Part shown: one piece after another, positions 8,173 through 63,433 of the stretch
Layout of the letters: every line of letters begins with the position of its first letter
How positions within the stretch are numbered: the first letter of the stretch is position 1
Assembly: GCA_026396835.1 (NCBI GenBank)
Contig: JAPLWA010000004.1
Coordinates: forward strand, 1 to 64,000
From: Candidatus Falkowbacteria bacterium
Lineage (GTDB): Bacteria > Patescibacteriota > Patescibacteriia > Patescibacteriales > Patescibacteriaceae
DNA length: 64,000 nucleotides
Direction: 5' to 3'
Position numbers and translations under genes: made by a program
The notes under the pieces: generated by a model
Told to the model about the DNA's origin: nothing
Seen by the model: only the letters and a program-made list of their open reading frames with translations
Database searches by the model: none

Positions 8173-8177
8173 ACGTT

Positions 8178-8450
8178 ATGTTGGATGATTATAAGACACA
8201 ATTAAAAGAGACAGGTAAAATAAGTTTACGTATTAAGGTTCATGCTGGGGCAAAAACTACTCGTATAAAATCAATTTTGTCCGATAACACAATAAAAGTT
8301 GATATTGCCAAGGCCCCGGAAGACGGCAAGGCTAATGAAAGTTTAATAAAACTATTAGCCGATGAATTTGAGGTTAGTAAGAGTTCTGTTCAAATAGCTG
8401 CCGGTAAATTTTCTGGAGATAAGCTGGTGAATATTATTAAAGTTAGCTAA
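8178..8450 (+). CDS. DUF167 (UPF0235/YggU) family protein
   Basis: A 90-residue protein matching the YggU family: V-H-A-G-A-K-T-T-R-I near the N-terminus, then the conserved P-E-D-G-K-A-N-E-S-L-I-K-L-L-A motif and a terminal S-G-D-K segment. Function is unknown across the family. It begins 5 nt after the fusion phosphatase and is followed by a terminator. Confidence 0.9.
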   Translation: MLDDYKTQLKETGKISLRIKVHAGAKTTRIKSILSDNTIKVDIAKAPEDGKANESLIKLLADEFEVSKSSVQIAAGKFSGDKLVNIIKVS

Positions 8451-45652: not shown

Positions 45653-46315
45653 TTAGTTAATAAAATTATTTCTTGATAAGTAGATAAAATAGTCGTCTTT
45701 CTCTCTGGGGTCTTTTGTGTGGATCATATTATTCAACCTTCGTGGGCTAACTGTTATAAGCTCTTCGCTAGGGTTATTTTCAAAATATGATCTAAAATAT
45801 TGCTGGTTAAGATAATGAAATGATTTAATTAGTTCGCTCTCCCTGTCATTATCAGTTCCAAAATATTTCTCATCCCAGGAAATAATTGTTTCGTAACTTT
45901 TTATTATTAGATGAATTGCTTTTTTTAATATTTCGCCCGGAATGTACATATTGGCGCCTAAGCCAATCATTTTTTTCCTGCATGCTTCGTTTACCTCCTT
46001 ACTTGAGGTAGTGACTATCAAAGCTGCTGGGTTTATCTTCCTGACGCTGTTTATTATGTGTGCGCTTTCATGTATTTTGCCCGGGCAATCATCCATAAAA
46101 ACATTAACTACAATTATATCTGGTCGTACCGTGTTGAAAACTTCCAGGGCATCTTTTCCACTAAAGGTTTCAATAACATTGTAGTTATTTTCCGTCCTTC
46201 TACTTATTGTTTTTGTAATTCCGGTAATATTGTATGGTGATATTACTAGTATTGCATTGTTCAACTCTGGCACCCCTGGTGCTCCGCTCGTGCTTATTCC
46301 AATGGTTTTCCCCAT
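45653..46315 (-). CDS. atypical (pseudo-)receiver domain protein (220 aa)
   Basis: Residues ~20-145 follow a CheY-like receiver pattern: A-I-L-V-I-S, then R-P-D-I-I-V-V-N-V-F-M-D-D, then A-L-I-V-T-T-S-S and G-A-N-M-Y-I-P. The usual phosphoacceptor Asp is Asn here and the conserved Lys near the end is missing, so phosphorylation is unlikely. The C-terminal ~75 residues show no known output domain. No histidine kinase is nearby. I infer a protein-interaction or signal-sensing pseudo-receiver. Confidence 0.65.
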   Translation of the reverse strand: MGKTIGISTSGAPGVPELNNAILVISPYNITGITKTISRRTENNYNVIETFSGKDALEVFNTVRPDIIVVNVFMDDCPGKIHESAHIINSVRKINPAALIVTTSSKEVNEACRKKMIGLGANMYIPGEILKKAIHLIIKSYETIISWDEKYFGTDNDRESELIKSFHYLNQQYFRSYFENNPSEELITVSPRRLNNMIHTKDPREKDDYFIYLSRNNFIN

Positions 46316-46530: not shown

Positions 46531-49500
46531 ATGCCCGCTAAGTTGCCCCGAAAAACATATAAAAGAAAATCAACTAAACCAGAGCTAATTCCGGTTAAGT
46601 TTTCTCGCTCATTGTTTATTTCAAAAAAAGTCCGCTTTGTTGTTGGCGGTCTTGTTTTATTGGCTTTGATTATTTACCCATTTACACGAGTGAAGAAAAT
46701 CGAAGCCGAGGTTACACCCTTTTTCTCGGGTTCATGTGACGGCGGTTGGGAAAATTCTGATAAAGCAGTTGGTGCACCTAATATTATAGAGGGTGGTATT
46801 GATAAGTACAGTGATCTTAACTCAGCCTCAATTTCAAATTCTATTGCACAAATACGTTGCGGAGGGTTTAGAGGAGAAGTCCCTCAAGATGTTGTTCCAA
46901 AAAAAGTTATACTTAAGTTTTCTTGGACTAATCATCTTGAAAATGTGATAGACATAAGTCCATCAATCGATCAGGGGCCAGCATCTGTTAACGAAGTACC
47001 AGCTCAAGGATCAAATGTTGAATCAAATCAAAATGAACAACCTGCTAATCAAGCACCTCTTGAAGTATCTCCATCAGGAGAATCTTCTTTTTTGAAAAAT
47101 TTTTTCTTCACATCAACGCACGCTCAGGAGAATGATCCATCACAGGTATTACCAGTCACAAGCTCAGATGTAGTAGATCCGGCTGCCGTAAGCGCTGAAG
47201 AGCCAGTCTCGTCAGATCGACCTATTATCCCTGAAGGATCAGTTGTTGAAGTTCGCTATACGCTTGACGGCACTAAGTGGGACACGCTTGGTTATGCTTC
47301 TGATATAAATAATTCTGTAAGCTTTGAAATACCGACTGGAGTTCTTTCTGGCTTTGCTGATTTAGAAAAAATTCAAGTTGCTCTTCAAACTTTGCCGACA
47401 ATTGATAATGCACCTAAAATTTATCTTGATGCTATGTGGTTGAACGTTGAATATCAGCCATCATCTCAAGAACTTAGCCAAGGGGAGATTGATAATTTAC
47501 CAAGAGTTAGAATTGATAATGTTTTTAAGCCTACAGAAGAAGATTTTCGGGCTGACGAAAAACCAAAATTTGAAGTCGATAATACCGTGTTAGATGCTAA
47601 GACTACAGAGATTATTAATGAGCAAAAGGCAGCTTCTGAACCAGCTCCAGGGCCAATCCCTGAACCAGCACCAGAAACACTACCCAAGGCAGATACTAAA
47701 ACAGATCCAGGAACCCAACCAGAAGTGACCCCACCTGCAGCAGATCCACTACAAGAACCGTCTTCAAATGCAACACAATTAAGAAAGCTTATTTCTATAC
47801 TTGGCGGAGATTGGTTAAAAAAAACCGTCCTAACTGCTTTTGCTCAAGATGCGATTGACCCTGCGCCAGTAGCTCCTGTTGAGGCTCCAGTTGAAATACC
47901 TGCCACATTACCAGTAGATGCTCCGACTGACACTCCAGCGCCGGCCGCTACTGATACTGTAACTCCAATACCAACTGACACGGCCGCACCAACGCCCACT
48001 GATATTGTAGCTCCAATACCAACTGACACTGTTGCGCCTACATCAACTGAAGCTCCAGCTTTAGCACCTATAACAAAAGCAAACTTTAAGGTTATTAAGT
48101 CTGATGTTTTTGATCCCGAGGGAGAAAAGGCAGAACTTCAGCCAGTAATCGAAGAAATAAATGGAGCTATAAGTATTAGTCTGCCTACACCATCTGACAA
48201 TTTTTTACCAGGCAAATATAAAATGGATGTAGAAATTTTGAGAGGTAGGTTAGTCTTTGTTTCTAGCCAGGATTTTACCTGGGGAGTTTTAGCGATTAAC
48301 ACCAACAAGTCAACTTACTTACCTAAAGAAGATGCTTATCTTCAAATGGGAACTCTTAGTGATACCGGAAATACGATCTGTGATGCCAATCTTAAATTAA
48401 AAATAACCAATGTAAATTTACAAACTGAGACAGAACTTTCTACTAGCGCCGGCACAATTGAATATAGTAAAACCTGTGGCGTAAATAACATAACTGATAA
48501 TCCAGATTATTTTGCTCATTACCAAGTTGGTGATCCAGGAGTTTATGACATGACTCTACAAAAAATTGATCCAAATAATGGTTCAGTAATTTATGAGATC
48601 AAAGATTCTTTTGAAGTCAAAGATTCTTTACCCTTTGAAGTTGAAAGAATTGGCGCGACTAGAATCAATCCATTCTTATCAAAATACGTGATGAATTTTA
48701 AAGTGAAAGCGAATCAAGATTTTAATGGTGTCATTGTTGAAACTGTTCCAGTCTCCATGAAAGTTACCGAGACTGATGATACTAAACAAAAAGAAGAGAA
48801 TGGAAAAAAATATATTATCTGGGAAAAGAGTTTGAGCGCCGGACAAACAATTGATTTAAGTTATGAATATCAGGGTGCAAAAATTTCGCCTCAAGTGTAT
48901 TTATTAGGTCCTCTAAATTTTTCCAATCCAGTTAATTGGTTGCAAAGATTATTTGGAGCTGATGATAAATTGATTTTTAAAGAAGCTGGTCAATGGCAAG
49001 TCGCTTCTGACTCCTTAACCGCCACGTGGACAGGAGCGGTTAATGGTAATTGGTCTAATGGTGGAAACTGGTCCGGCGGAGTCGTACCTGGCGCTGGTGA
49101 CAACTTAGTCTTCCCTAATGGTGCGTCTAATCTTTCGAATACTAATGATTTGATTCAAAATACAATATTTAACTCGATTACCTTTTTAGGCAGTGGTTAT
49201 ACTTTAGCTGGTAACGATATTATTTTAGGGCAGGGAGTTGCCGGAATTACTGACGGCGTAGCATCAGGCGGAAATACAATTAGTCTTAATATTCGACTTG
49301 ATGCCACTAGAAATATTTTTATAACCAATAGCGCTGAGACTTTAACGATTAGCGGCATGATTGGTGGAGCTGGTGGATTTAACAAAGAGGGAACAGGTAA
49401 ACTTATTCTTTCTGGCGCCAACACTTTTGCCGGAGCAACGACGATCAACGCTGGAATTGTAAATTTAAGACATGCTGAGGCTCTTGGAGCAATTGCCGCC

Positions 49501-52500
49501 GGAACTGCCGTGGTTGGTGGAGCTGAATTGCAGTTACAAGATGGAATAAATATCGGCTATGAAGCGCTGACATTGAGAGGATTTGGAGTTTTAGGTGGTG
49601 GTGCTCTCCGAAATATTAGCGGTGACAATTCTTTTGCTGGATTGATTACTTTAGTGGCTGGTGGAGCTGAAATTGATTCTGACTCAGGCACGCTTAGTCT
49701 TACTGGTGGTGTGACTGGTACCTTTAACCTTAATATTGATGGGGCGGGCAATATTACTTTTGATATGTCACCGCTCGCTATTGCCGGTGCTACCTTGACT
49801 AAGAATGGCGCTGGAACATTAAAATATAATTTTCCAAATACATATACTGGAACAACGGTTATCAATAGTGGGACTCTTTTATATGGCGTAGACAATGCAA
49901 TTCTATCGGGAGCTATTACGGTTAATAATGGAACACTAGATATAGCAACATACTCTGATATGGTTGGAACAATTACGCTTGGATTGATTGGAGATTTATC
50001 AAACCCAACTATCACTGGTTCAACTGGAGTTTTAAGTAGTGCTACATTTACTGTTTATAGCGGAACAATTAGTGCCATCATTGCCGGCGACGGTGGAGCT
50101 TTAACTAAATCAACACCAGGAACGGTTATTTTAACTCGACCTAATCTTTATAGCGGCGCTGTTTCCGTGAGTGCTGGTATTCTTGATATTAGAGACAGCA
50201 TGGCTTTGGGCGTTATCGATGGTATAACTACTGTTTCGGCAGGTGCAACACTTCTTATAAATGGTAGTGGTCTTTCGATTCCAGAATATATTACCATCTC
50301 AGGAACTGGTATGTTATATACCGGAGCCATTCACAATGCGACAGGTAATAATACTTTAACAGGTGTTGTTACGCTTGCGGCCGCTGCTGTTATAGATTCT
50401 GATTCCAGTACCACTCTTACAATTGATCAGAAAGGAATTTCGGCTGTTTCTTTTGCGTTGACCGTGAGCGGCGCCGGAAATGTTACGACAACAACTTCGG
50501 CTCCTATTTGGGCAACGTCAGCTTCGCTTGTTAAGAATGACGCCGGAACTTTAACACTCGGTGGTTATAATAACTTTACCGGTTCTACGGTTATCAACGA
50601 TGGTATTGTTATATTAAGTGGAGCCGGCACTCTTCCGTCATCGGCTGTGACGATTAACTCAGGTGCAACCTTGACGGTTGATAATAGTGCAACTGATTTA
50701 TTGAATCGTATATCATCATCTGCTTTTACCATGAACGGTGGAAATTTTAATTATATTGGTAATAGTTTGTCTGATGCCTCAGAGTCAGCTGGAGCTTTAA
50801 CGCTCACAAGCGGTCATAATATTATTACTGTAACTCCAGGAGCTGGTGGACCGACAACTATGACCTTTGCCAGTTTGGCACGTACCGCAGGAGCAACAGC
50901 TCTTTTTAGAGGCACAAATCTTGGATCCACTCCGGCAGCCAATGTTTCTACATTGATGTTCACTACTATTGGAGCGAACTTAATCGGTGCTGCTGGTGCG
51001 GCTAACTCTAAAACTATCAGCGTTATTAAAGGTGGGTTTGGTGATACTTCTTTAAGTGGAACCGGATCAGATATGGTGACATATAACGTCGGAAATACGA
51101 ATGGTCTAAGACTTCTTAATCAAGCTGGATTTAGTGGTGAATATGCTTCCGATTTTTCTACTATTAATACCAATGTAAAATTAACTGCCGGTACGGCAGC
51201 AACAACTCAATCAGTTAACTCCTTAATTTTAAATGGTTTTGATGTAACTAATCCTGGGACTGGTCAAACCTTAACAATGGCTTCTGCGAGTTTAAGCGGA
51301 AACATTTTAATTAACAGCGCTAACAATATTGCTGGAGCTAATACGACTCTCGGTATTACAACTAATGAATTAGATATTTTAGCGAGCGCTTCTTCTACGG
51401 TCTCAGCAGTAATAGGAACAGCTGTTGCTGGATCCTTGACCTTAAGCGGAACAGGAAATGTAACTTTAAGTACAGCGTCTTTATATACTGGTTTAACTTC
51501 TGTAAATAATGTGACTTTAACCTATGGCGCGAGCAACGTTATTTCTTCTGGAGGCGTAACAGTTAATAATGGAACGCTTGATATGGGTGCAAATAGTGAT
51601 ACTGTCGGTGCAGTTATAATGCAGCGAGGAACTATAACTGGTGGAGCAGGAGTATTAACCGGATCTTCATTTGAGCTTAGAAGTGGGACAGTCAGCGCTA
51701 TTATTGCTGGTTCAGGAACTACTACTCGTATAGCGACTAATACGGCTGCTGATAGTATTGTCTTATTAACAAGAGATAATACTTACAGTGGTGTAACAGC
51801 GATTGATAATACTTACAGTGGTGTAACAGCGATTACTAGCGGAATTCTTAAACTTGGTGCAGCTGGTGGCGCAACTAATACACCACTCGGTACCGCTGTT
51901 GGTGGAACAACTATTGCAACAATTGGAGCGCTCGATTTAAATGGTTTTTCAATGACTAGCGGAGAACCAATTACTTCTTTGAATGGTTTAGGTTATGGTT
52001 CAGGTGCAACTGTTGCGAATGGAAATAGTAACATGGGCGCCTTGATGAATAGTTCATCAACTACTGTGTCTTATAGCGGTGCGATTACTCTTGGTGCAGC
52101 TGCGAGAATTGCCGCTGATGCTAGCGTGATGAATATTAGTAGCAATATTTCCGGTGCCTTCGTACTGACAATTGGAGGATTTAATGATTCAACTTTTTCC
52201 GGAACTCTATCCACTATTACTGGTGTGACTAAAGATGGCTTTGGAACCTTAACTCTTTCAGGAAATAATTCTTATGCAGGTGTTACTACGGTGAGCGTTG
52301 GAGATCTTAAATTAGGTGCCGCTGGTGGAGCCACTAATACTCCACTCGGCATTGCTGGTGCTGGTAACAATACCCTTGTGTCAGCTGGTGCTATGCTTGA
52401 TTTAAATGGATTTACTCTTGGTACAGCTGAACTATTAACAATTAACGGAACAGGATTTGGACTCGGTGATTTTGCACTTGGTGCTTTAACAAATACTTCA

Positions 52501-52902
52501 GCTAGCGCTGTAACTTATAGTGGACTTTTAACTTTAGGATCTGCTAGCACAATTATTGCCAACAACGGCGATATAAATTTAAGTGCAGCGGGTACGATTA
52601 CCGGTGCCGGATTAGGTTTAACAATTGGTGGATCTGGCAACGGAACCCTGACAAGTGTTCTCGGAACAACCAGCGGGACATTAACTAAAATTGGTACTGG
52701 TATTTGGACGCTTTCTGGTGCTAGTACATTTACGGGTGCCGCTACGATTGCTAATGGAACAATTAAGCTAGGAGTAGCCGGTGATACTTTAAATACTCCG
52801 CTTGGAGTAATTGCCGGTGCGACAACTGTTAACAGCGGGGGAGTACTTGATCTAAATGGTTTTACTATCGGAACAGCTGAACCGAAACGGTCGAGGAATT
52901 AA
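46531..52902 (+). CDS. giant surface protein, 5' part (beta-strand repeats)
   Basis: 2,123 residues up to an apparent frameshift. Order: a basic N-terminus with one TM helix (about 35-52); a folded region with two cysteines; Pro/Glu/Ala- and Thr/Pro/Ala-rich linkers (about 145-235, 365-420 and 440-515); a beta-domain region; then from about residue 825 dozens of repeats of the autotransporter-associated type (G-T-G-K-L-I-L-S-G-A-N-T-F, A-G-A-T-T-I-N-A-G) expected to form a long beta-solenoid. Proteins of this kind are adhesins or surface filaments. The sequence ends at TAA 52900 directly after an out-of-register join near 52885; the rest continues in another frame. -10 TATAAT at 46457-46462, leader about 65 nt. 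Confidence 0.85.
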   Translation: MPAKLPRKTYKRKSTKPELIPVKFSRSLFISKKVRFVVGGLVLLALIIYPFTRVKKIEAEVTPFFSGSCDGGWENSDKAVGAPNIIEGGIDKYSDLNSASISNSIAQIRCGGFRGEVPQDVVPKKVILKFSWTNHLENVIDISPSIDQGPASVNEVPAQGSNVESNQNEQPANQAPLEVSPSGESSFLKNFFFTSTHAQENDPSQVLPVTSSDVVDPAAVSAEEPVSSDRPIIPEGSVVEVRYTLDGTKWDTLGYASDINNSVSFEIPTGVLSGFADLEKIQVALQTLPTIDNAPKIYLDAMWLNVEYQPSSQELSQGEIDNLPRVRIDNVFKPTEEDFRADEKPKFEVDNTVLDAKTTEIINEQKAASEPAPGPIPEPAPETLPKADTKTDPGTQPEVTPPAADPLQEPSSNATQLRKLISILGGDWLKKTVLTAFAQDAIDPAPVAPVEAPVEIPATLPVDAPTDTPAPAATDTVTPIPTDTAAPTPTDIVAPIPTDTVAPTSTEAPALAPITKANFKVIKSDVFDPEGEKAELQPVIEEINGAISISLPTPSDNFLPGKYKMDVEILRGRLVFVSSQDFTWGVLAINTNKSTYLPKEDAYLQMGTLSDTGNTICDANLKLKITNVNLQTETELSTSAGTIEYSKTCGVNNITDNPDYFAHYQVGDPGVYDMTLQKIDPNNGSVIYEIKDSFEVKDSLPFEVERIGATRINPFLSKYVMNFKVKANQDFNGVIVETVPVSMKVTETDDTKQKEENGKKYIIWEKSLSAGQTIDLSYEYQGAKISPQVYLLGPLNFSNPVNWLQRLFGADDKLIFKEAGQWQVASDSLTATWTGAVNGNWSNGGNWSGGVVPGAGDNLVFPNGASNLSNTNDLIQNTIFNSITFLGSGYTLAGNDIILGQGVAGITDGVASGGNTISLNIRLDATRNIFITNSAETLTISGMIGGAGGFNKEGTGKLILSGANTFAGATTINAGIVNLRHAEALGAIAAGTAVVGGAELQLQDGINIGYEALTLRGFGVLGGGALRNISGDNSFAGLITLVAGGAEIDSDSGTLSLTGGVTGTFNLNIDGAGNITFDMSPLAIAGATLTKNGAGTLKYNFPNTYTGTTVINSGTLLYGVDNAILSGAITVNNGTLDIATYSDMVGTITLGLIGDLSNPTITGSTGVLSSATFTVYSGTISAIIAGDGGALTKSTPGTVILTRPNLYSGAVSVSAGILDIRDSMALGVIDGITTVSAGATLLINGSGLSIPEYITISGTGMLYTGAIHNATGNNTLTGVVTLAAAAVIDSDSSTTLTIDQKGISAVSFALTVSGAGNVTTTTSAPIWATSASLVKNDAGTLTLGGYNNFTGSTVINDGIVILSGAGTLPSSAVTINSGATLTVDNSATDLLNRISSSAFTMNGGNFNYIGNSLSDASESAGALTLTSGHNIITVTPGAGGPTTMTFASLARTAGATALFRGTNLGSTPAANVSTLMFTTIGANLIGAAGAANSKTISVIKGGFGDTSLSGTGSDMVTYNVGNTNGLRLLNQAGFSGEYASDFSTINTNVKLTAGTAATTQSVNSLILNGFDVTNPGTGQTLTMASASLSGNILINSANNIAGANTTLGITTNELDILASASSTVSAVIGTAVAGSLTLSGTGNVTLSTASLYTGLTSVNNVTLTYGASNVISSGGVTVNNGTLDMGANSDTVGAVIMQRGTITGGAGVLTGSSFELRSGTVSAIIAGSGTTTRIATNTAADSIVLLTRDNTYSGVTAIDNTYSGVTAITSGILKLGAAGGATNTPLGTAVGGTTIATIGALDLNGFSMTSGEPITSLNGLGYGSGATVANGNSNMGALMNSSSTTVSYSGAITLGAAARIAADASVMNISSNISGAFVLTIGGFNDSTFSGTLSTITGVTKDGFGTLTLSGNNSYAGVTTVSVGDLKLGAAGGATNTPLGIAGAGNNTLVSAGAMLDLNGFTLGTAELLTINGTGFGLGDFALGALTNTSASAVTYSGLLTLGSASTIIANNGDINLSAAGTITGAGLGLTIGGSGNGTLTSVLGTTSGTLTKIGTGIWTLSGASTFTGAATIANGTIKLGVAGDTLNTPLGVIAGATTVNSGGVLDLNGFTIGTAEPKRSRN
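50731..51381 (+). repeat. internal duplication in giant gene, copy 1
   Basis: Encodes about 215 residues from M-N-G-G-N-F-N to N-E-L-D-I-L. The copy at 53591-54241 is very similar in protein but differs at many synonymous sites. Confidence 0.8.
51775..51834 (+). repeat. 30-bp perfect tandem duplication in giant gene
   Basis: Two identical, in-frame 30-nt units (51775-51804, 51805-51834) that encode D-N-T-Y-S-G-V-T-A-I twice. Either replication slippage or an assembly artefact. Confidence 0.85.
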
Positions 52903-55900
52903 TGACGGTGGTGCAATAATAAATAACTCAGCTAGCGGAATAGGTTATAGTGGTGGAATTACGATTGGATCTGATGCACGTATTACAAATACTGGTGCCG
53001 GCTTGTTAACTCTTTCAGGAGCTATCGCCACTGCTGGTACAACGAGAATAGGTGGCGCAGGAAACATCACTCTGGTTACTGGAGTTGCTTCTGGAGCAGG
53101 TGGATTAACTAAAGATGGAGCAGGAACCTTAACCGTCAACGTTAGTGAAACCTATACTGGAGCCACAATTATCGAAGCGGGAAATTTTAACTATGGCGCT
53201 AGCGGTCTTTTGGCTGTCACAGCCGTATCTGTATTGGGAGGATCTTGGAATATGAACGCTGTTACTGATTCAGTGGGAACTGTGACCTTGGTCGATGGTA
53301 CTATTACTAATGGTACTCTTACTGGAACTGCCTATACAGTTGAAAAAGGAACTATCGGTGCAGTACTTGCTGGAGCAATAGCTCTTGTAAAAAATAGGCA
53401 AGGTACTGTGACAATGACCGCGGCGAATACTATTAGTAGTACAGTAACAATTAATGCTGGTGCTATTATTTTAAGTGGATCTGGTTCAGCTGCGTCTGCT
53501 ACTTTTACCGTTAACCTTGGTGGTACTCTAACACTTGATAATAGTTCAACAGCCGTGGCCAGTCGTCTTGGAGATGCGTTGGCTCTAACTATGAACGGCG
53601 GAAATTTTAATTTTATCGGCAATACGGCGGCGCTGTCTTCAGAAACAGCTGGAGCGCTGACATTATCAACGGGATATAATGTGATAACAATTACACCCGG
53701 TGCTGGTGGATCAACTACTATGACTTTTGCCAGCTTAACTCGTTCTGCTGGTTCGACTGCTTTATTTAGAGGAACTGGATTTGGTACTAATCCTGCTGCT
53801 AATATTTCGACTCTAATGTTTACCTCTATTGGAACAAACTTAATTGGTGCTGCAGGTGCCGCTAATTCAAAAACTATCAGCGTTATTAAAGGTGCCTTCG
53901 GCGACACTTCATTAAGCGGAACTGGCTCAGACATGGTTACTTATAACGTTGGAAATACCAACGGTTTAAGATTACTTAACCAAGCTGGATTTAGCGGTGA
54001 ATATGCCACTGATTTTGCCACTGCTAATGGTAACGTCAAATTAGGTGCGGACACGGCTGCTTCTACTCAATCAATCAATTCATTAATTTTAAATAATTTT
54101 AGTGTCACTAATCCAGGAACAGCGCAGACAATTACTTTAGCCACGGCCAGCTTGAGTGGTAATACCTTGCTTAATAGTGCGACTAATATTGCTGGTGCTA
54201 ACACGACTATTGGTATGACAACTCTTGAACTGCCTATGCTCGTTACTGCTAATGCTACAGTCTCAGCAATTCTTGGTACTAACGCAGCTGGTACTGTTAC
54301 TTTAGGTGGTGTTGGTAATCTAACTTTAAGTGCTGCTGGCGCTTATACTGGAACAACAACTATAAATAATGCCACGCTAACTTATGGAGCTAGTAACGTT
54401 ATTTCTTCAGGTGCTGTCACGGTTGTTAATGGTATTTATGATCTTAATGGTAATTCAGATACAATTGGCGCGCTTAACTTAAACGCAGGCACAGTTAGAA
54501 GCGGAAGCGGTACTTTGACTTTAGGAGGAACAGTGACAACTACTGCTAACAATAATGTTAGCTCAACAATTAGCGGTAATCTTGGTTTGGGTGCTGCGAG
54601 AAGTTTTAACATTGGTGATTCTGTAGTTGATAATGATGTGGTTGTTTCAGCAGTTATTAGCGGTGCCTTTGCGATTACTAAGGATACCGGCGCTGGAGTT
54701 TTAGTTTTTTCTGGTAATAATACCTACACTGGTACAACTACTATTAACGCCGGAACTTTGCGACTTGGTGCTAATGGTGATGCAACTAATACGCCACTCG
54801 GCACAACCGCTGGCGGAACCTTGGTTGTTGGTGCTAGCTCGGCGCTTGACTTAAACGGTTATACACTTGGTACAACCGAAGGTCTAAGTTTGAACGGTGC
54901 GTTGGCTGCTGGAGCCGTACAAAATCTTTCTAGTGTCAATTCTACTTATAGTGGTCTGGTTGTTCTTGCAGGTGCTAGTACGATTATTTCTAACTACGGT
55001 GATATTAATGTAACAAATGCCGGCACAATTTCCGGTGCTTTTGGTTTGACAATTGGTGGCTCTGGCAATGGAACTCTTGTCAGTATTGTTGGTACTGGTG
55101 CAAACACCTTAACGAAAAACGGTGTGGGTTTGTGGAACGTTTCTGGCGCCAGCACTTTTACCAGCACAACAACAATCAGCGCCGGAACTTTACAGCTCGG
55201 TTCGGCTGGTTCGGCTGGTAATACGCCACTTGGAACAACTGCCGGCGTAACTGCGATTACTTCTGGTGCCATACTTGATCTTAATGGAATTACTCTATCT
55301 ACAGCTGAGCCAATAACTAGCATTAACGGAACAGGAATAAATAACCGTGGAGCTATTACAACTAATTCCTCGAGTCCGACAAGTTTCAGCGGACCAATTA
55401 CTCTAGGAGCCGCTTCTCGTATTACTAATTTTGGTAGTGGAACATTTTCGTTCAGTGGCGCATTGGCTGGCGCGTTTGCGCTTACCTTAGTAAGTTCACC
55501 CGGAACAATAACACAAACTACTGCCAGCGCTTGGTCAGCCGTCGCCGGTGCAATCACCAAAGAAGGATCAGGTCTACTTATTCTTGGTGGGCAAAATGCT
55601 TTCACTGGCGCGGTTACTATTAGCACCGGGACTGTTCAACTTGGAGCCAACGGTGGAGTAACGAACACGCCTCTTGGTACAATTGGCGGAGCCACTACTG
55701 TTGCAGCTGGTGCAGATCTTGATTTATCAACTTTCACTCTTGGTGGATCTTCAACTTGGGAGCCATTAACTTTAAACGGCAGCGGAATTAATAATGCTGG
55801 GGCATTAACTAGTAGCTCTTCAGGTGCTAATACTTTTGGTGTTCTGACTCTTGGTTCAAACGCTCGTATTCAAAATTCAGGCTCAGGACTTATTACTTTT

Positions 55901-58054
55901 GCTGGTGCACCAACTGGAACTTTTAACTATGTTATTAGTGGAACAGGTCCAACAACTTTCTCCGGAATTTTTCCGGCCGTGGCTATTACTATAACTAAAT
56001 ATGATTCCGGAATTCTGACTTTAGGTGCAGCGAATCTCAGTACAGGCTTAGTGAGAATTAATGGTGGAACTTTAAAATATGGAGTTAACGATGCCTTAGC
56101 TACTGGAGCCGTTACTGTTGCTGGCGGAACATTTGATCTTAGCGGTTTTAATGAAACTAACATCGGTGCTGTCACTTTAATTAGCGGATCAATTATTAAC
56201 AGTGGTGGAGCGGCTACGCTAACTTCGACTGCTGCTTACGCCCTTGAAAGTGGAACAATCAGTGCAGTATTAGGTAGCGCTGTGGCTGCTGGTATTTCAA
56301 AGACAACCAGTGGTCAAGTTATTTTGTCTGGTAATAATACCTTTACCAGTACTTCCGCTGCTTTGTTGGTTGGTAAATTAAATTTGCAAAATAGCAACGC
56401 TCTTGGTGCTGCTGGTACTACTCATACTACAACAGTGACAGCTGGAGCTACCTTGGAGTTACAAAATAATATTACTTTACCAAGCACTAAATTAATTACT
56501 ATTAACGGTACTGGTGCAGGTGGTATTGGATCAATACGAAATGTTAGTGATTCGAATACGATTCAGGGAGCAATCACGCTCAGCTCAATCACGCCACGTA
56601 TTAAATCTGAGAGTGGAGCTCTCGTTGTTTCGGGGGCTATTAGCGGTGCAACTAACTCTTTGTTGGTTGGTGGATCTGGTAATACGACGATTTCCAGAGT
56701 TATCGGTACTACCAGCGGTACGCTTACTAAAGATGGATCCGGAACTTTAATATTAACAACAGCTACAAATACTTATACCGGTTTAACTACGATTAATGCT
56801 GGAGCGATTAATGTACGGAATGCCGCGTCGCTCGGCACAACGGCGGCTGGCACGGTTGTTAATTCCGGCGGAGCTTTACAGATTCAGGGAACTATTACAG
56901 TCGGAGCAGAAGCTTTAACTTTATATGGCAATGGTGTTTCTAATACTGGCGCTTTACGAAATATTGTTAATGATAATACTTATCAAGGAACTATTACCCT
57001 GGGTTCAAATGCTTCGATAGGTTCAGACGCCGGTACTCTGACTTTGAGCGGAACTATTACAGGTGCTACATCAATTGGCTTAACTAAAGTTGGAGCAGCA
57101 ACAGTTGCAGCGTCAAATACAATTAACGTTGGTGGAGATTTTGCTATTTCAGCCGGAACCTTAACTGCATCATCGAATACTATTACCATTGCTGGTAGTT
57201 GGTCTAACTCAGGAACTTTTACCGCAGGCTCTTCTACTGTTTTGATGAACGGAGGCAATACCGTGACAGTTTCCGGCACAACAACTTTTAATAATTTAAC
57301 TATTACACATACTGTCGCCAAAGAAGTTGATTTCCAAACCGCTGGTTCACCAATTTTTCATATTACTGGAGTATTTACGGTTACCGGACACAGTGGTGCG
57401 GCTATAAAATTATATTCTGATGCTAGTCCAACCCAATGGCGTATTCATCCAACTGGAACAGCAGTTTTAGATTGGCTTGATGTTAAAGACAGTGCTTGTG
57501 AATCCGGTTCAATAAATATGAATCCAACTAATTTTACCAACACAAATAATGGAACATGCTGGGCTATGCCTTCTATTACTATGACTATGTCTTTATCTAA
57601 TGCCACGATTAATTTTGGAACCTTAACGATGTTGTCGCCGCGTTATGCTACGAGCACACTTGGTGCAGGCGTAGAAAGTATTGCCCACACCATTGATGTG
57701 TCAACTAATGCTACCTATGGCTATACTTTATATGTTCAAGGAGATCCTTTAGCTGGTCCGGGTGGACATGTAATTACCGCAATTGGTAACACGCCAGCCG
57801 CTTCTAATCCTGGTAATGAGCAATTTGGTATTAGATCTACTGTTAGCGGGGGAGTAGCGACAGTTGCTTCAACTTATGGACATGCTAGTAACTATGGCTA
57901 TGATGCAACGGCAAGTAACCAAAGTACTATTGGAAATGCCGCAGGAGCATCAACTGATACTTTCTCTATGCGTTATTTATGTAATATCGGTTTTACAACT
58001 AACGCAGGAAGTTATTCTACGACCTTAACTTATACCGCGGTAGGTGGTTTTTAA
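52886..58054 (+). CDS. giant surface protein, 3' part (after frameshift)
   Basis: About 1,722 residues that continue the same repeat series in the +2 register from N-G-R-G-I-N-D-G-G. Elsewhere the repeat unit reads T-A-E-P, a few residues, then I-N-G-T-G-I-N; here T-A-E-P and N-G-R-G-I-N are joined through one extra base, consistent with a deletion of about 8-11 nt. The repeats continue to about 57250. A C-terminal domain (57581-58054) follows, ending S-Y-S-T-T-L-T-Y-T-A-V-G-G-F, shared with the next gene product. An upstream ATG at 52856 is in this frame but is unlikely to be a real start. Confidence 0.8.
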   Translation, partial: NGRGINDGGAIINNSASGIGYSGGITIGSDARITNTGAGLLTLSGAIATAGTTRIGGAGNITLVTGVASGAGGLTKDGAGTLTVNVSETYTGATIIEAGNFNYGASGLLAVTAVSVLGGSWNMNAVTDSVGTVTLVDGTITNGTLTGTAYTVEKGTIGAVLAGAIALVKNRQGTVTMTAANTISSTVTINAGAIILSGSGSAASATFTVNLGGTLTLDNSSTAVASRLGDALALTMNGGNFNFIGNTAALSSETAGALTLSTGYNVITITPGAGGSTTMTFASLTRSAGSTALFRGTGFGTNPAANISTLMFTSIGTNLIGAAGAANSKTISVIKGAFGDTSLSGTGSDMVTYNVGNTNGLRLLNQAGFSGEYATDFATANGNVKLGADTAASTQSINSLILNNFSVTNPGTAQTITLATASLSGNTLLNSATNIAGANTTIGMTTLELPMLVTANATVSAILGTNAAGTVTLGGVGNLTLSAAGAYTGTTTINNATLTYGASNVISSGAVTVVNGIYDLNGNSDTIGALNLNAGTVRSGSGTLTLGGTVTTTANNNVSSTISGNLGLGAARSFNIGDSVVDNDVVVSAVISGAFAITKDTGAGVLVFSGNNTYTGTTTINAGTLRLGANGDATNTPLGTTAGGTLVVGASSALDLNGYTLGTTEGLSLNGALAAGAVQNLSSVNSTYSGLVVLAGASTIISNYGDINVTNAGTISGAFGLTIGGSGNGTLVSIVGTGANTLTKNGVGLWNVSGASTFTSTTTISAGTLQLGSAGSAGNTPLGTTAGVTAITSGAILDLNGITLSTAEPITSINGTGINNRGAITTNSSSPTSFSGPITLGAASRITNFGSGTFSFSGALAGAFALTLVSSPGTITQTTASAWSAVAGAITKEGSGLLILGGQNAFTGAVTISTGTVQLGANGGVTNTPLGTIGGATTVAAGADLDLSTFTLGGSSTWEPLTLNGSGINNAGALTSSSSGANTFGVLTLGSNARIQNSGSGLITFAGAPTGTFNYVISGTGPTTFSGIFPAVAITITKYDSGILTLGAANLSTGLVRINGGTLKYGVNDALATGAVTVAGGTFDLSGFNETNIGAVTLISGSIINSGGAATLTSTAAYALESGTISAVLGSAVAAGISKTTSGQVILSGNNTFTSTSAALLVGKLNLQNSNALGAAGTTHTTTVTAGATLELQNNITLPSTKLITINGTGAGGIGSIRNVSDSNTIQGAITLSSITPRIKSESGALVVSGAISGATNSLLVGGSGNTTISRVIGTTSGTLTKDGSGTLILTTATNTYTGLTTINAGAINVRNAASLGTTAAGTVVNSGGALQIQGTITVGAEALTLYGNGVSNTGALRNIVNDNTYQGTITLGSNASIGSDAGTLTLSGTITGATSIGLTKVGAATVAASNTINVGGDFAISAGTLTASSNTITIAGSWSNSGTFTAGSSTVLMNGGNTVTVSGTTTFNNLTITHTVAKEVDFQTAGSPIFHITGVFTVTGHSGAAIKLYSDASPTQWRIHPTGTAVLDWLDVKDSACESGSINMNPTNFTNTNNGTCWAMPSITMTMSLSNATINFGTLTMLSPRYATSTLGAGVESIAHTIDVSTNATYGYTLYVQGDPLAGPGGHVITAIGNTPAASNPGNEQFGIRSTVSGGVATVASTYGHASNYGYDATASNQSTIGNAAGASTDTFSMRYLCNIGFTTNAGSYSTTLTYTAVGGF
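53591..54241 (+). repeat. internal duplication in giant gene, copy 2
   Basis: Partner of 50731-51381. The stretch around T-I-S-V-I-K-G to G-F-S-G-E-Y-A is almost invariant between copies in protein sequence. Confidence 0.8.
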
Positions 58055-58083
58055 TAGACGACTATCTAAATGTGTGCTATAAT
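58055..58083 (+). promoter_or_regulatory. promoter of the small surface protein gene
   Basis: TAGACG (58055-58060), a 17-nt spacer and an extended -10 TGC-TATAAT (58075-58083). The start codon is 58126, so the leader is about 36 nt. It lies right after the giant gene stop. Confidence 0.6.
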
Positions 58084-58125
58084 AAGAGTATATTTATTTA
58101 TCCACATAATAATTTATTTTACTAT

Positions 58126-59196
58126 ATGAGGAAATCTTCGTTAAAGCGCATTGTTAATGCGTTGGTTATAACATCACTCGTGATGGTTATGGCTAATTTT
58201 GGTTACTATGCCCAAGCCGCAAACCTAACCACCTTAAGTGACAATTTGACCCGTCTAAAGACAAGCACTTTAGCCGATCATACTATTCAGTTTGTTACTC
58301 CAACCGGAGTAGCTGCCGGTCAAACTATTACTTTGACTTTTAGTTCTGGTTTTACTATGGGTACTTTTGCAGTTAATAACGTTGACGTAGCTACGGCTGC
58401 AACTTGTGCTGGCTCATTTACTGATAAAACTTTAGCCGCTTCTCCTGCTACTACTACTTGGGGAGTAGCTCAAGTTGGCCAGGTTATTACTATTACATCA
58501 GCCACAGACACAATTGCTGCAACAAACTGTGTTAGAATCAAGATTGGTTCCAATGCTTCTATCGGTGGCGCCGGTGCAACTCAAATTACTAACCCTGCTA
58601 CTGCTCAAACTGCTACTTTAGCGGTTGCTGCCGGTAATGGTGTTGATTCAGGAACAGCTGGTATCGCGATTGTTGATACTAACTTTGACCAGGTTTCTGT
58701 AACAGCTACTGTTGACCCAACATTAACTTTTGCTTTGTCTGACAGCTCTATTGGTTTCGGAACCTTATCTTCAACAAATGCTCATTATGCTACTGGTGAT
58801 ACTCTTGGTACAACAACCCCTACGGTCGGAAATAACGTCCAGGTTTCAACTAATGCTACTTCTGGCTATACAGTTTATGTTCAGGGTGCAACTTTGACTA
58901 GTGGTGGTAATACTATTACCGCCATGCCTGCTTCCGCAGCATCTTCTACCAACAGTGAACAGTTTGGTCTTAACGTAGCTGCTGCCGGTGGAACTGGAAC
59001 CGCGAGTGCTCCTTACGCAACAAGTTCACAGTATGCTTACACGGCCACTGCAACTACCCAGACTCCTATTGGTTCTGCCACGGGTCCATCAGCAACCACA
59101 ACCTTTAGTCTTACCTATTTAGCTAACATTGCCGCTACAACTGAAGCAGGTAGCTATACTACAACTCTAACTTACACAGCGACTGGTAGCTTCTAA
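58126..59196 (+). CDS. secreted protein sharing the giant protein's C-terminal domain (WxL-like)
   Basis: 356 residues. A Sec signal peptide (R-K-S-S-L-K-R start, hydrophobic core, A-Q-A cut near residue 31) precedes a Thr/Ala-rich beta domain. The C-terminal ~155 residues (L-S-D-S-S-I-G-F-G-T-L; V-S-T-N-A-T-S-G-Y-T-V-Y-V-Q-G; E-Q-F-G-L; final S-Y-T-T-T-L-T-Y-T-A-T-G-S-F) closely match the end of the giant protein. The layout recalls WxL domains of Firmicutes, though the W-x-L itself reads T-Y-T-A. It has its own promoter and low charge; it may be an abundant surface-layer component (inference). ATG 58126 preferred over 58072. Confidence 0.75.
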   Translation: MRKSSLKRIVNALVITSLVMVMANFGYYAQAANLTTLSDNLTRLKTSTLADHTIQFVTPTGVAAGQTITLTFSSGFTMGTFAVNNVDVATAATCAGSFTDKTLAASPATTTWGVAQVGQVITITSATDTIAATNCVRIKIGSNASIGGAGATQITNPATAQTATLAVAAGNGVDSGTAGIAIVDTNFDQVSVTATVDPTLTFALSDSSIGFGTLSSTNAHYATGDTLGTTTPTVGNNVQVSTNATSGYTVYVQGATLTSGGNTITAMPASAASSTNSEQFGLNVAAAGGTGTASAPYATSSQYAYTATATTQTPIGSATGPSATTTFSLTYLANIAATTEAGSYTTTLTYTATGSF

Positions 59197-59216
59197 AAGC
59201 TATTACGCCATTAAAT

Positions 59217-60212
59217 ATGAATAAACATTCTTTCCGCCGTTTGTTGCTGGGAGTTTTGGTCGGCGGACTAACATTGGCTGTTCCTTTGTTCCAAGCTCAG
59301 GCTATGACTGTTTCACCAGTCAGAGTCGAGTTAGCTGGTGATCCAGGAAAGTCAGTTGGCGGTTTCTTTAAGGTTATTAATGAAGAGCAAGAAGCAAAAA
59401 CTTTGTACACAGTTTTTGAAAATTTTGAACCAATGGGTGAAACCGGTAGTCCTAGCTTTAAAACCGGTAATGAAGGTTTAGCGAGTTGGATTACAGCCCC
59501 TAAAGAAGTAACAATAGCTCCCGGAGAAACTAAAACAGTTGATTTTGCTGTTAATATTCCGGCTGATGCTGAGCCAGGAGGATATTTTGCTGCTATATTT
59601 TTAGCAACAACGCCACCTGATATCAGTGGAAATCAGCTTTCTATTGGTGCTCGAGTTGGCACTCTTCTTTTGTTCAGAGTTAATGGTGACATTAAAGAAG
59701 GTGGCGCTTTATTAGAATTTAAAACTAAAGATAATAATTCCTGGTATAATTCTTTGCCGGTCAATTTTTATTACCGTTTCCAGAATAGCGGCGCCGATCG
59801 CGTAATGCCTAAAGGCTCGTTGAATATAAAAAATATCTTTGGCATGTCTACTAAAGTTATTAACGCTAACTTAGGACAAGGCAATGTTTTGCCTCGCAGT
59901 ATTCGTCGTTTTGAACTGTGGTGGCAGAAAGGAACTGATTCAACAATCGTTCCGGAATTACAGTCAAATAAACTTGGATTTTTTGAAGCCGCAAAATATC
60001 AATGGAATAATTTTGCTTTTGGTCGTTACCGAGCTGATTTAGATATTAGTTATGGCACCAAGTCAGAAAAAGTTGTCTCTAGTTTTGTTGTCTGGGTCTT
60101 CCCTTGGCAACTTCTTCTAATTGAATTAGTTGGCCTGATTATAGTTCTCGTTGTCTTAGGTTTTATTATCAAACGTTATAATAAGTGGATTATTCGCCGC
60201 GCACGTTCTTAA
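59217..60212 (+). CDS. DUF916-like (WxL-interacting) membrane-anchored protein
   Basis: 331 residues: signal peptide (A-Q-A near residue 28), a first beta-sandwich like DUF916/WxL-interacting-protein domains (M-T-V-S-P-V-R-V-E-L, I-A-P-G-E-T-K-T-V-D-F, P-G-G-Y-F-A-A-I-F), a second beta domain, and a C-terminal TM helix (about 298-318) followed by a basic tail. In Firmicutes such proteins hold WxL-domain proteins at the cell wall. Here it directly follows two genes whose products share a WxL-like C-terminal domain, so the same role is a reasonable inference. Confidence 0.8.
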   Translation: MNKHSFRRLLLGVLVGGLTLAVPLFQAQAMTVSPVRVELAGDPGKSVGGFFKVINEEQEAKTLYTVFENFEPMGETGSPSFKTGNEGLASWITAPKEVTIAPGETKTVDFAVNIPADAEPGGYFAAIFLATTPPDISGNQLSIGARVGTLLLFRVNGDIKEGGALLEFKTKDNNSWYNSLPVNFYYRFQNSGADRVMPKGSLNIKNIFGMSTKVINANLGQGNVLPRSIRRFELWWQKGTDSTIVPELQSNKLGFFEAAKYQWNNFAFGRYRADLDISYGTKSEKVVSSFVVWVFPWQLLLIELVGLIIVLVVLGFIIKRYNKWIIRRARS

Positions 60213-60225: not shown

Positions 60226-61215
60226 ATGACTCGAAGAATTTTCTTCGGCGCGGCCGTCGCCGCGCCGTTTTCTATTATAAGCCTTATTTTTATAGTGATT
60301 GCTAATCCAGTATTAGCAATCAATGTTAGTGGTTCTTTGGGAGTTGATATATCTGCCGAGGTTTGTCCAGCTAGTGGTTGTCCCACAAGTGGTGGCGGAG
60401 GCGGAGGCGGAGGCGGAGGAGGCGGTGGCGGAGGAGGCGGCACCATCAATCCGTCCCCGGTAGTTGATCCTAATCTATTACCAACAACTGGAGTAGTTTT
60501 TATTGGCAGAGCTTATCCCTCAAGTAATATATCCTTGTTGCAAAATGGACGTTTGATTGTTAGAACGATTTCTGGTCCTGATGCGGCTTTTTTAATTAGT
60601 ATTTCCAATGCCACGCCAGGCAATGTTAATTACTTAATTGTTGGCGAAGATCCTTTTGGACGTCAGTCTTCTTTCAATGTTCCAGTAGTTGTAACTGCTG
60701 GAGCCACTACAACCGTTAGTGGAATTTTTATTGCACCAACAATTGATCTTAATAAGCGCCAGCTAAATTATGGTGAGAATCTTATTATTTTTGGACGCAG
60801 TGTCCCTCAATCCGACGTAACTATTTCAGTTAACTCAGATACAGGATTATTTTTAAAAACAAGTACTGACAACGGGGGAGCATATCTTTATAATTTAGAT
60901 ACAACTTTATTAAACGTTGGTCTTCATGAAGCTAAATCAAAAACGGCTTATAATGGTCAGATTTCTGACTTTAGCCAAGCGGTTAATTTCTCGGTTGCTG
61001 GAAAAGGTCAACCAGTTCCGGAAGAAGAGCCGGTTAAAGAGAAATGTGGTTTGTCCGGCGATTTTAACGGAGATTGTAAAGTCAATTTAGTTGATTTTTC
61101 AATTATGGCTTATTGGTATAAGCGAGATAATCCGCCTGTTAAAGTCGACCTAAAGAAAGATAAAAAAATTGATTTAGCTGATTTTAGTATTTTAGCGTCC
61201 CAATGGACTGGCTGA
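60226..61215 (+). CDS. secreted protein with C-terminal dockerin domain
   Basis: 329 residues. A signal peptide/anchor (about 8-30) is followed by a short Cys pair (C-P-A-S-G-C), then an uninterrupted run of 17 Gly (about 60-76), two Ig-like beta domains, and a type I dockerin. The dockerin's two Ca-binding loops read D-F-N-G-D-C-K-V-N-L-V-D and D-L-K-K-D-K-K-I-D-L-A-D, each followed by F-S-I. Dockerins bind cohesins; two cohesin-domain proteins are encoded immediately downstream. Starts 13 nt after the DUF916 gene. The Gly run is encoded by GGN triplets that could slip. Confidence 0.85.
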   Translation: MTRRIFFGAAVAAPFSIISLIFIVIANPVLAINVSGSLGVDISAEVCPASGCPTSGGGGGGGGGGGGGGGGGTINPSPVVDPNLLPTTGVVFIGRAYPSSNISLLQNGRLIVRTISGPDAAFLISISNATPGNVNYLIVGEDPFGRQSSFNVPVVVTAGATTTVSGIFIAPTIDLNKRQLNYGENLIIFGRSVPQSDVTISVNSDTGLFLKTSTDNGGAYLYNLDTTLLNVGLHEAKSKTAYNGQISDFSQAVNFSVAGKGQPVPEEEPVKEKCGLSGDFNGDCKVNLVDFSIMAYWYKRDNPPVKVDLKKDKKIDLADFSILASQWTG

Positions 61216-61223
61216 TAATAATT

Positions 61224-62123
61224 ATGAAATACATTTTTTCTACAATATTTTTAAGTTTCGCCTTACTCCTAGCAGTTTTACCAGCTCAGGCAGCTAAGCT
61301 TATATTAAAAACTGATCTTGAAACTATTCAAAAAAATGGTGGCGGTAAAATTGAAATTTTACTAGACTCACCAGACGAAAAAGTTAATGCTTTGGGTGGA
61401 GAATTATTCGTTTCATCTGGTCAGGCTACACTATCGGATATTAATGATGGGCAATCAATTATTTCAGCTTGGCTGGATCAGCCAGTTATTTCTAATAATG
61501 GTTCATTGGTTTTTTCAGGCATTATTCCTGGTGGATTCTCAGGCTTATATGCTGCTAACACGCCGAGCGTTTTACCCGGTTTAGTTTTGTCATTTAATAT
61601 AAAATCGCAAGCCAAAGGCAATGTTACTTTATCATTTAAGAATGTACAGGCTTATGCCAATCAAGGTGAGTCTGTAAAGATTATTACCGAGCCAGAAACT
61701 CTAGCAATAAATTTTGATCACTTAGCTGAAAATGTAAATTATCAGGCAGATGATAAAGTAGCGCCAACTGATATTGATTTTAGTATTATTAAGATGCCTG
61801 ACACTAAGCTTGGGTGGGTGGCTATTTTTTCAGCACAAGATAGTGGTTCAGGTATTGATCATTATGAAATTCAAGAGTCATTGTTGAGTAAGCCTGAGAA
61901 TGATGACTGGAGGAAAGCTACTAGTCCTGTTGCCTTGCAAGATCAGTCGCGAAACAAATATGTTTTTATAAAAGCCGTTGACCGAAGTGGCAACCAAAAA
62001 ATTGTTTCTTTGCCTCCTGAGCCTAATACTTTAAATAATCTGTATTACTTGGCGGCCGGCCTCATTATTATATTAGTCACAGCTGCTTTCGTAATATACC
62101 GTTTTATAAAAAATAAAAAATGA
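61224..62123 (+). CDS. cohesin-domain membrane-anchored protein
   Basis: 299 residues. Signal peptide (A-Q-A cut near 22), then a cohesin-like beta-sandwich at about 23-155 (V-N-A-L-G-G-E-L-F-V, S-L-V-F-S-G-I-I-P-G-G-F-S-G, G-L-V-L-S-F-N-I-K-S). A second beta region (G-S-G-I-D-H-Y-E-I-Q, Ig-like) and a C-terminal TM helix (about 270-292) with a Lys-rich tail follow. It could hold the dockerin protein at the membrane. ATG 61224 is chosen because it opens a proper signal peptide; a frame from 61203 overlaps the previous gene. Confidence 0.8.
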   Translation: MKYIFSTIFLSFALLLAVLPAQAAKLILKTDLETIQKNGGGKIEILLDSPDEKVNALGGELFVSSGQATLSDINDGQSIISAWLDQPVISNNGSLVFSGIIPGGFSGLYAANTPSVLPGLVLSFNIKSQAKGNVTLSFKNVQAYANQGESVKIITEPETLAINFDHLAENVNYQADDKVAPTDIDFSIIKMPDTKLGWVAIFSAQDSGSGIDHYEIQESLLSKPENDDWRKATSPVALQDQSRNKYVFIKAVDRSGNQKIVSLPPEPNTLNNLYYLAAGLIIILVTAAFVIYRFIKNKK

Positions 62124-63433
62124 AATTTTTTAGATTAAATCTTTTATTTACTTTTTTTGTCGCTATTATAATGGTGACTTTTTTTGCTAACTCGGCGAGC
62201 GCCGCTAATTTTTACTTTAGAATGGACAAGACCGCCTATAAAACTGGGGAGTCTGGCTATGTCACACTTAACATTGATACACAAAATAAAACAGTTAATG
62301 CTGTTGAGGCAGTTGTTGATTTTGATCCTAGTCTTATTGAGGTGACAAAATATGTACCTGATAAATGTATTATTAATTTCTGGGTGCAGTCACCAGCAAT
62401 TGATAATATTAACGGCAAAATTACTTTTAAGGGCGTGATTCTTAATCCAGCCTATAATGGCCCTCAAGGTAGATTGATCGGTTTTAATTTTAAATCTAAG
62501 GCACCCGGTTCTATGCCTTTTAAAGCAACTAGTCTAGTGGCCTTGGCGCATGACGGCAAGGGAACAGGTCTGGCAAGTGCAGGGACTAATCGTTCTATTT
62601 CTATCGCCGGAAAACCCTTGGCTTCTGCGGCTAACCTTGCTTTAAGTTCTTCAAGTCATCCTGACCAGTCAAAATGGTATAATAAAACAACCGCTTCAAT
62701 TTTTTGGAAAGCGGATAAAGGCGTAACTGCTGTGGCTTATGCTTTTAATCAAATTGCTAATTTTGAAGTTCCTGATTCCGCAGTAACAGAATTTTCATCA
62801 GCTATTGAAAGAGACTTAACTAGTGGCACCTGGTACGCTCATGTTCGGGCTAAAGATCAAAACTCTACCTGGTTAAAGACGCTTCACTTCAAGATAAATA
62901 TTGATAACGAAATGCCATCATCCAATGCTATTACTGTTTTACCCCGTCAAAATGATTCTTTCTTGCCCGTGATTAGAGCTAAGGCGACTGATAGATTGTC
63001 AGGTGTTGTTATTTATGAGATTTGGAATGGAACGAAGATGATTTTTAAAGATAAGGAAATAAATAATTTGCGTCTTAAGAGTTTGGTGGTTGGTAAAAAC
63101 GTTATTGAGATAAAAGCTTTTGATGCCGCTGGAAATGTCCGAAGTGACAAGTTTACTGTGCTTTATAATCCATTGCAGCCATCTAAAAAAGCAGCCACAC
63201 CAGCAGCGCCTGTAGAGCCGTCTGCTCCGGTGGTTCCTAAAATTACACCAAGTGCGCCTTCGACTGCGACCAAGCCGACCACTACTAAAAAAACAACAAC
63301 AAATCTAAAGATTGTTCAGCCAGCACCAGTTAAGCCAAAAGCACCCGTAGTAACTCCAGCTAAACCAGCCCCAGTAAGCACTCCGACCGTCACGCCAAAG
63401 CCAAAGAAAAACTACTCAGTTCTATTTGATTAA
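62120..63433 (+). CDS. cohesin-domain secreted protein with Pro-rich tail
   Basis: 437 residues, overlapping the previous gene by 4 nt (ATGA). Signal peptide (A-S-A near residue 28), cohesin-like domain at about 30-165 (Y-K-T-G-E-S-G-Y-V-T-L-N-I-D-T, V-N-A-V-E-A-V-V-D-F-D-P, I-T-F-K-G-V-I-L-N-P), then Ig/fibronectin-like beta domains (W-Y-N-K-T-T-A-S-I-F-W; G-T-W-Y-A-H-V-R-A-K-D; A-F-D-A-A-G-N-V). The last ~85 residues are Pro/Ala/Thr/Lys-rich and look wall-spanning. Lacks a C-terminal TM helix, so it differs from the other cohesin protein. Confidence 0.8.
   Translation: MKFFRLNLLFTFFVAIIMVTFFANSASAANFYFRMDKTAYKTGESGYVTLNIDTQNKTVNAVEAVVDFDPSLIEVTKYVPDKCIINFWVQSPAIDNINGKITFKGVILNPAYNGPQGRLIGFNFKSKAPGSMPFKATSLVALAHDGKGTGLASAGTNRSISIAGKPLASAANLALSSSSHPDQSKWYNKTTASIFWKADKGVTAVAYAFNQIANFEVPDSAVTEFSSAIERDLTSGTWYAHVRAKDQNSTWLKTLHFKINIDNEMPSSNAITVLPRQNDSFLPVIRAKATDRLSGVVIYEIWNGTKMIFKDKEINNLRLKSLVVGKNVIEIKAFDAAGNVRSDKFTVLYNPLQPSKKAATPAAPVEPSAPVVPKITPSAPSTATKPTTTKKTTTNLKIVQPAPVKPKAPVVTPAKPAPVSTPTVTPKPKKNYSVLFD

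Follow-up and report, generated by a model that had tools for sequence, protein, structure and literature searches.

The stretch of DNA analysed here (the window) covers positions 1 to 64,000 of contig JAPLWA010000004.1, assigned to a Candidatus Falkowbacteria bacterium, and carries a plus-strand cluster of surface protein genes which, judged by profile matches, is a pilus locus of the Pam type; the genome is Falkowbacteria-like and belongs to the Candidate Phyla Radiation (CPR, or Patescibacteria). At the centre of the cluster are genes for a giant surface protein (46531–58054), a pilin of about 356 aa (58126–59196) and a membrane protein of 331 aa (59217–60212). The first two proteins end in the same domain (pilin-C), while the third is a homologue of the WxL-interacting proteins (WxLIPs) of Firmicutes. 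On balance, we favour the view that the cluster specifies a pilus with distant ties to the WxL/WxLIP system, the subunits of which would be held by a chaperone-like membrane anchor and joined by donor-strand exchange. The host is probably a tiny episymbiotic bacterium, and CPR bacteria are regarded as monoderm. The nearest named genomes bearing the cluster are those of Candidatus Falkowbacteria, UBA2355 and UBA917.

The pilin consists of a signal or membrane helix, an N-terminal immunoglobulin (Ig)-like domain (about 58216–58689) and pilin-C (58723–59193). Its start at the ATG at 58126 is plausible, because the 18 preceding codons fold with mostly very low confidence in AlphaFold2 (AF2); the model of the protein, which was used for fold searches, has a predicted local distance difference test (pLDDT) score of 91. 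The second copy of pilin-C forms the C-terminus of the giant protein (57581–58051; A8 profile, E = 2e-50). The original prediction had claimed a common C-terminal domain for these two proteins, and the motifs it quoted are present. The last ~157 residues are 50% identical (E = 1e-27) in a 160-residue alignment of 57551–58051 with 58711–59193, and chance similarity was ruled out by a shuffle test, the two domains giving a Smith-Waterman score of 370, whereas none of 2000 shuffles scored above 105. Both copies exceed the 55-bit cut-off of NF058581 in NCBIfam release 20 (78.4 bits for the pilin, 62.5 for the giant protein), a model named 'Pam pilus system pilin subunit' (CPR_Pam_pilin_C) that describes a pilin domain of CPR bacteria, and it is this result that marks the locus as Pam-type. 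The same model is matched at E ≤ 1e-3 by 56 of the 57 pilins of the wider family. A genome-wide search for further proteins with the domain, as had been proposed at the outset, was carried out with NF058581 and a deeper profile, and found exactly these two copies.

The domain occupies the extreme C-terminus in 125 of 126 proteins. In a set of 126 distinct proteins ending in pilin-C, its end forms a conserved plug motif, with glycine at −15 (115 proteins), tyrosine at −13 (122), an aromatic residue at −7 (113) and F or Y at −1 (121). The W-x-L motifs of WxL proteins are replaced, by GYTV at the first position and, as was recognised originally, by TYTA at the second. Many loci have two or three pilins of ~350 aa in tandem, as expected of subunits. 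Single pilins gave no WxL match in Pfam, and a sequence search of the PDB with pilin-C returned no relative. Among solved structures the pilin-C region best matches 9ikk_A ('TLP-1b', by cryo-electron microscopy; Z 8.5 over 135 residues, 3.5 Å, 16% identity), the sole specific match among those listed. A literature search on this entry found no paper on it, only one on TasA/TapA. The Z-score is middling, and kinship with pilin-C is at most a possibility.

As sequenced, the giant gene is made up of two overlapping open reading frames (ORFs) that are out of frame with each other (46531–52902 and 52856–58054), the frame changing near 52,878–52,902. The first encodes an N-terminal membrane segment, a Pro-rich region and beta-helical repeats of the autotransporter type (TIGR02601, E = 7e-37), and the second begins with PATR/beta-helix repeats (52856–57580; PF12951, E = 5e-24). 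Because of this split, pilin-C lies on the downstream frame of 1732 aa. The frame change is either a sequencing or assembly error or a real break. The original description of a single giant protein carrying the domain at its C-terminus is thus right about the domain but does not fit the frames as read.

The gene that follows the pilin had been predicted to encode a DUF916-like protein with a C-terminal transmembrane (TM) helix, which is borne out at the level of the family. The protein has a signal, a PGBD-like Ig domain (DUF916; about 59298–59690), an HBD-like Ig domain (DUF3324; about 59694–60092) and a TM helix (about 60105–60206), and its AF2 model (pLDDT 94) shows the C-terminal helix at residues 297–330. 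Alone, it matches PF06030 below the cut-off (E = 0.0024), while 15 of 21 homologues match this model, the best at 3e-8. A profile of the CPR homologues matches the solved Enterococcus faecium WxLIP over both domains (E = 1e-4), and a hidden Markov model (HMM) built from CPR loci only finds Firmicutes WxLIPs, represented by a comparison set from plasmid loci, of which the intact members have E values between 1e-13 and 6e-6. With hhalign, the CPR and Firmicutes families align over 216 columns spanning both domains (P = 3e-11). The best PDB matches of the model are 9i25_C (Z 14.0) and 9i1y_A (Z 13.4; Foldseek E = 7e-12), PDB 9i25 being the solved E. faecium complex of a WxLIP with a long WxL protein. 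Next come chaperones of chaperone-usher systems, namely CsuC (Z 12.3), CfaA (11.4), Caf1M (11.3) and FimC (11.1), which are alike in fold only. By the profile matches of the family, and the fold match to WxLIPs and then to chaperones, the product is a homologue of WxLIPs that is arranged like PapD and anchored in the membrane.

Around residues 131–145 this protein has alternating hydrophobic residues (141 and 143), followed by a hydrophobic run at 150–155, and position 146 is K or R in 62 of 75. The strand before and after residues 131–145 is analogous to the F1–G1 hairpin of the chaperones, and the basic residues of the WxLIP-like protein are presumably comparable to Arg8 and Lys112 of PapD. 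NCBIfam release 20 contains no model for the WxLIP-like gene of Pam loci. WxLIP-like proteins were also seen in metagenome-assembled genomes labelled Thermoleophilia and Actinomycetes (L134, L137, L140), i.e., outside the CPR, and these are either true occurrences or binning errors. A WxLIP with 74% identity to EfmWxLIP1 of E. faecium is encoded by plasmid record CP069367.1 (H1), which bears the label Klebsiella pneumoniae and is probably a mixed or mislabelled assembly.

The pilin and WxLIP-like genes almost always occur side by side. A pilin-C ORF is present in 63 of the 75 loci that were collected with the WxLIP-like family, and in 60 it lies directly upstream on the same strand; a looser count, for pilin-C or another WxLIP-like gene directly upstream in loci with at least 1.2 kb of upstream sequence, gave 56 of 67. 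Across 381 genomes sampled evenly from the CPR/Patescibacteria phylum, NF058581 was found in 102 and the WxLIP-like family in 174, with both in 99 compared to 47 expected (hypergeometric p = 7e-39, a value that ignores the shared ancestry of the genomes). The occurrence of the domain in genomes without a DUF916 protein, which the original prediction had named as telling against it, is therefore rare, since 99 of the 102 pilin genomes have both. The converse association is looser, with 75 genomes having the WxLIP-like family without NF058581, and some of these encode small WxL-like proteins. In canonical Pam loci, where PamT (NF058579, cut-off 240 bits) and PamR (NF058578, 300 bits) score above their cut-offs, the order is PamT, pilins, WxLIP-like protein, PamR. 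The window holds a large and a small protein with the domain together with the WxLIP-like protein, and many other loci have the same order.

Downstream of the WxLIP-like gene, the recurrent order continues with a dockerin gene and two cohesin-like genes. The dockerin protein (60226–61215) is secreted and has a Gly-rich linker, Ig-like domains and a C-terminal type I dockerin (about 61057–61197) that is matched by dockerin chains in the PDB; it shows no match to PamR. All 26 members of the family match PF00404 (type I dockerin, a duplicated Ca-binding repeat), with a best E of 1e-10; the protein of the window scores 19.1, below the cut-off of 22.9. In 39 of the 69 loci with sequence available, the WxLIP-like gene is followed within 1.5 kb by a dockerin gene; in this branch, the latter sits at the position of PamR in canonical Pam loci, suggesting that the dockerin protein could be a functional replacement of PamR. 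The product of the next gene (61203–62123) is cohesin-like and has a TM segment at its C-terminus; the gene is conserved in position and is homologous to the family of the last gene. The latter (62120–63433) specifies a probable cohesin (about 62228–62599; PF00963, E = 0.0045), an Ig-like domain and a Pro-rich tail; PF00963 is matched by 11 of its 26 homologues (best, 2e-16), with the window protein at 17.6 bits against a cut-off of 24.1 bits. Cohesin–dockerin pairing within the locus is predicted from these domain assignments.

Two other features lie upstream of the cluster. A minus-strand gene (45653–46315), divergent from the cluster and with weak similarity to response regulators, is a possible regulator; a sister genome (L013) has a minus-strand gene of like size in the same place (7694–8332), with no Pfam match. 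Several genes resembling those of type IV pilins, three of them in tandem, occur in the window (44224–45288) and at L016 8479–11681 (contig ~71.5–74.7 kb); their products have almost the same N-terminus but differ in the C-terminal domain. Fib_succ_major was assigned to the window copy by Pfam, and the others were judged by eye.

PF13731 (WxL) is matched in 11 of the 381 CPR genomes, all of which also carry the WxLIP-like family, and is without a match in the window genome. Most CPR WxL proteins (~200 aa) sit in WxLIP-like clusters, and in L176 the two genes are 5 bases apart. Small PF13731 proteins of this kind were noted in L174, L176, L181, L182, L184 and L185; WxL elsewhere is mostly described from Firmicutes, and the CPR copies fall outside that group. 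In profile comparisons, CPR WxL is readily aligned with Firmicutes WxL (P = 3e-16) and also with pilin-C (P = 1.2e-4). A combined CPR and Firmicutes WxL profile matches pilin-C end to end over 128 columns (P = 1.8e-5) with a score of 36.4, compared to a maximum of 13.6 for column-shuffled controls and at most 22.8 for unrelated families from the same loci. The small-pilin profile gives P = 7e-6 against WxL when the CPR bridges are included. It is likely, though not proven, that pilin-C is a distant homologue of the WxL domain, linked to it through these bridging proteins.

Modelling of Firmicutes WxLIPs predicts that the WxL sandwich is completed by a strand from a hairpin in their first Ig domain (PMC10599100), and a comparable arrangement can be envisaged for the window proteins. 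Pilin-C would be an incomplete beta-sandwich, common to the pilin and the giant protein. Tethered to the membrane through its C-terminal helix, the WxLIP-like protein would catch secreted subunits there, its first Ig domain lending a strand (hairpin and strand, residues ~128–155) to pilin-C. The subunit would then pass into the growing fibre as the lent strand is swapped for that of the next subunit (donor-strand exchange); alternatively, the WxLIP-like protein may fix the fibre base to the membrane. The giant beta-helix protein would act as an adhesin at the tip or on the surface, borne by the same plug at its C-terminus, and the dockerin protein and the two cohesin-like proteins may form a tether outside the cell that is non-covalent and takes the place of PamR. 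A wider and distinctly more tentative proposal is that Pam pili and Firmicutes WxL proteins are two branches of one usher-less superfamily in cells without an outer membrane, in which a PapD-like, membrane-anchored WxLIP completes the C-terminal domain of its partners by strand donation; the partners would polymerise in one branch, with a cohesin–dockerin tether in the branch represented by the window.

Several results weigh against a chaperone-anchored pilus related to WxL. The giant gene contains a frameshift in the sequence at hand. The locus has no PamT equivalog, the two pilin-C proteins scoring 39.1 and 37.3 bits where 240 are needed (the genome may be incomplete, at 96%), and PamR (NF058578) found no match in the window genome at E values up to 1. 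Both the complex of pilin and WxLIP-like protein and the fibre are predictions, the latter in line with the NCBIfam annotation, and a basic residue at position 36 in strand A1 of the WxLIP-like protein is only partially conserved (R or K in 44 of 75). As regards kinship, pilin-C compared directly with Firmicutes WxL gave P = 0.018, which is not significant (a control beta-sandwich, PGBD, gave 0.031); the alignment, of low confidence, is nonetheless colinear, with GY over GW and TYTA over TWTL. The comparison with WxL profiles suggested by the original prediction is thus not significant when made directly and gains strength with the CPR bridges; omitting the closest of these (L183) weakens the match to P = 3.5e-4 and a score of 28.8, still above the controls. 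Iterated HMM searches begun from either side leave the two families separate, which also means that there was no drift. The WxL chain 9i25_A is missing from the list of matches to the complete pilin model, but this says nothing about pilin-C, because that list is mostly filled by the N-terminal domain.

Three other explanations bear on these results. The pilus may be of the Pam type with a pilin-C unrelated to WxL, a protein of the WxLIP/PapD type having been recruited independently to two unrelated beta-sandwich partners. The non-significant direct comparison would agree with this, and a T-rich amphipathic C-terminal strand could arise by convergence, but the full-length colinear alignment through CPR WxL, well above its shuffled and unrelated controls, and the same partner family at the same extreme C-terminal place make it unlikely. 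It concerns descent only and is compatible with the proposed mechanism. A true if divergent WxL system, as originally predicted, would instead make pilin-C a peptidoglycan-binding wall anchor of monomeric surface proteins, with the WxLIP as its membrane partner and no fibre. The gene set does resemble that of WxL clusters, which combine a large and a small protein with a single WxLIP (PMC9772566), the neighbouring gene is a WxLIP homologue, and the small WxL proteins of CPR bacteria sit in WxLIP clusters. Against this, the domain belongs to a pilin family, PF13731 is unmatched in the window genome, both W-x-L motifs are absent and many loci have tandem pilins as would be expected of subunits, so that we consider such a system quite improbable. 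What survives of that prediction is the pairing of a WxLIP homologue with a domain shared by a large and a small protein; given its NF058581 family, the missing PF13731 and the replaced motifs, it makes more sense to class the cluster as a pilus locus of the Pam type with ties to WxL than as a WxL system in its own right.

A sortase-type or isopeptide pilus, built from covalently linked pilins as in Gram-positive bacteria, is highly improbable. The structural neighbours of the pilin N-terminal domain do include the sortase pilins SpaA, BcpA and EbpB (Z 8.5–9.4), but BslA, YcnI and cohesins score alike, so the likeness reflects only a common Ig-like arrangement. This candidate was rejected on the C-terminus of the pilin, which ends in TYTATGSF with neither an LPXTG motif nor a C-terminal sorting signal (a search for sortase genes was not made).

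The pilin domain is a described family, and the locus is a further member of the Pam pilus group. A full-text search on the Pam pilus found no paper, the NCBIfam names being the only source, and some of the findings may therefore already be known to the Pam authors. Not found described in the searchable literature are the identity of the Pam-linked gene as a chaperone-fold WxLIP homologue, the probable kinship of pilin-C and WxL through CPR WxL proteins, and the dockerin and cohesin genes. The findings bear both on the surface attachment of WxL proteins and on fibre building by episymbiotic CPR bacteria. An almost universally linked Pam component that had no name, the WxLIP-like gene, gains a family and a likely role. 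If the same chaperone-anchor operates in both systems, the solved E. faecium WxL–WxLIP complex becomes a template for CPR pili and, conversely, strand exchange and fibre formation become questions for WxL proteins. The dockerin and cohesin genes offer a specific hypothesis for anchoring.

Compared with the chaperones of chaperone-usher systems (PapD, FimC, CsuC, Caf1M, CfaA), the WxLIP-like protein shares two Ig-like domains (fold Z 10–12) and an alternating-hydrophobic strand with a basic residue, and its partner pilin has a conserved aromatic C-terminal strand; it differs in being anchored by a TM helix and in its ~10% sequence identity, and its donor-strand action is inferred. No usher was seen in the cluster (a genome-wide usher search was not made). 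The likeness to the WxL/WxLIP pairs of Firmicutes (PF13731, PF06030) extends from the combination of a large and a small protein with a common C-terminal domain and a two-Ig, TM-anchored WxLIP homologue to the spacing of the second motif, Y-(5)-aromatic, whereas the window motifs read GYTV and TYTA, the pilin has an extra N-terminal Ig-like domain and PF13731 is lacking. The closest counterpart is the Pam pilus system of CPR bacteria, with which the locus shares two domains above the pilin cut-off and, as in canonical PamT/PamR loci, a WxLIP-like gene directly after the last pilin. It departs from that system in that a PamT equivalog is missing from the locus and PamR from the genome, in encoding a dockerin and two cohesin-like proteins instead, and in carrying one of its pilin-C domains on a giant beta-helix protein.

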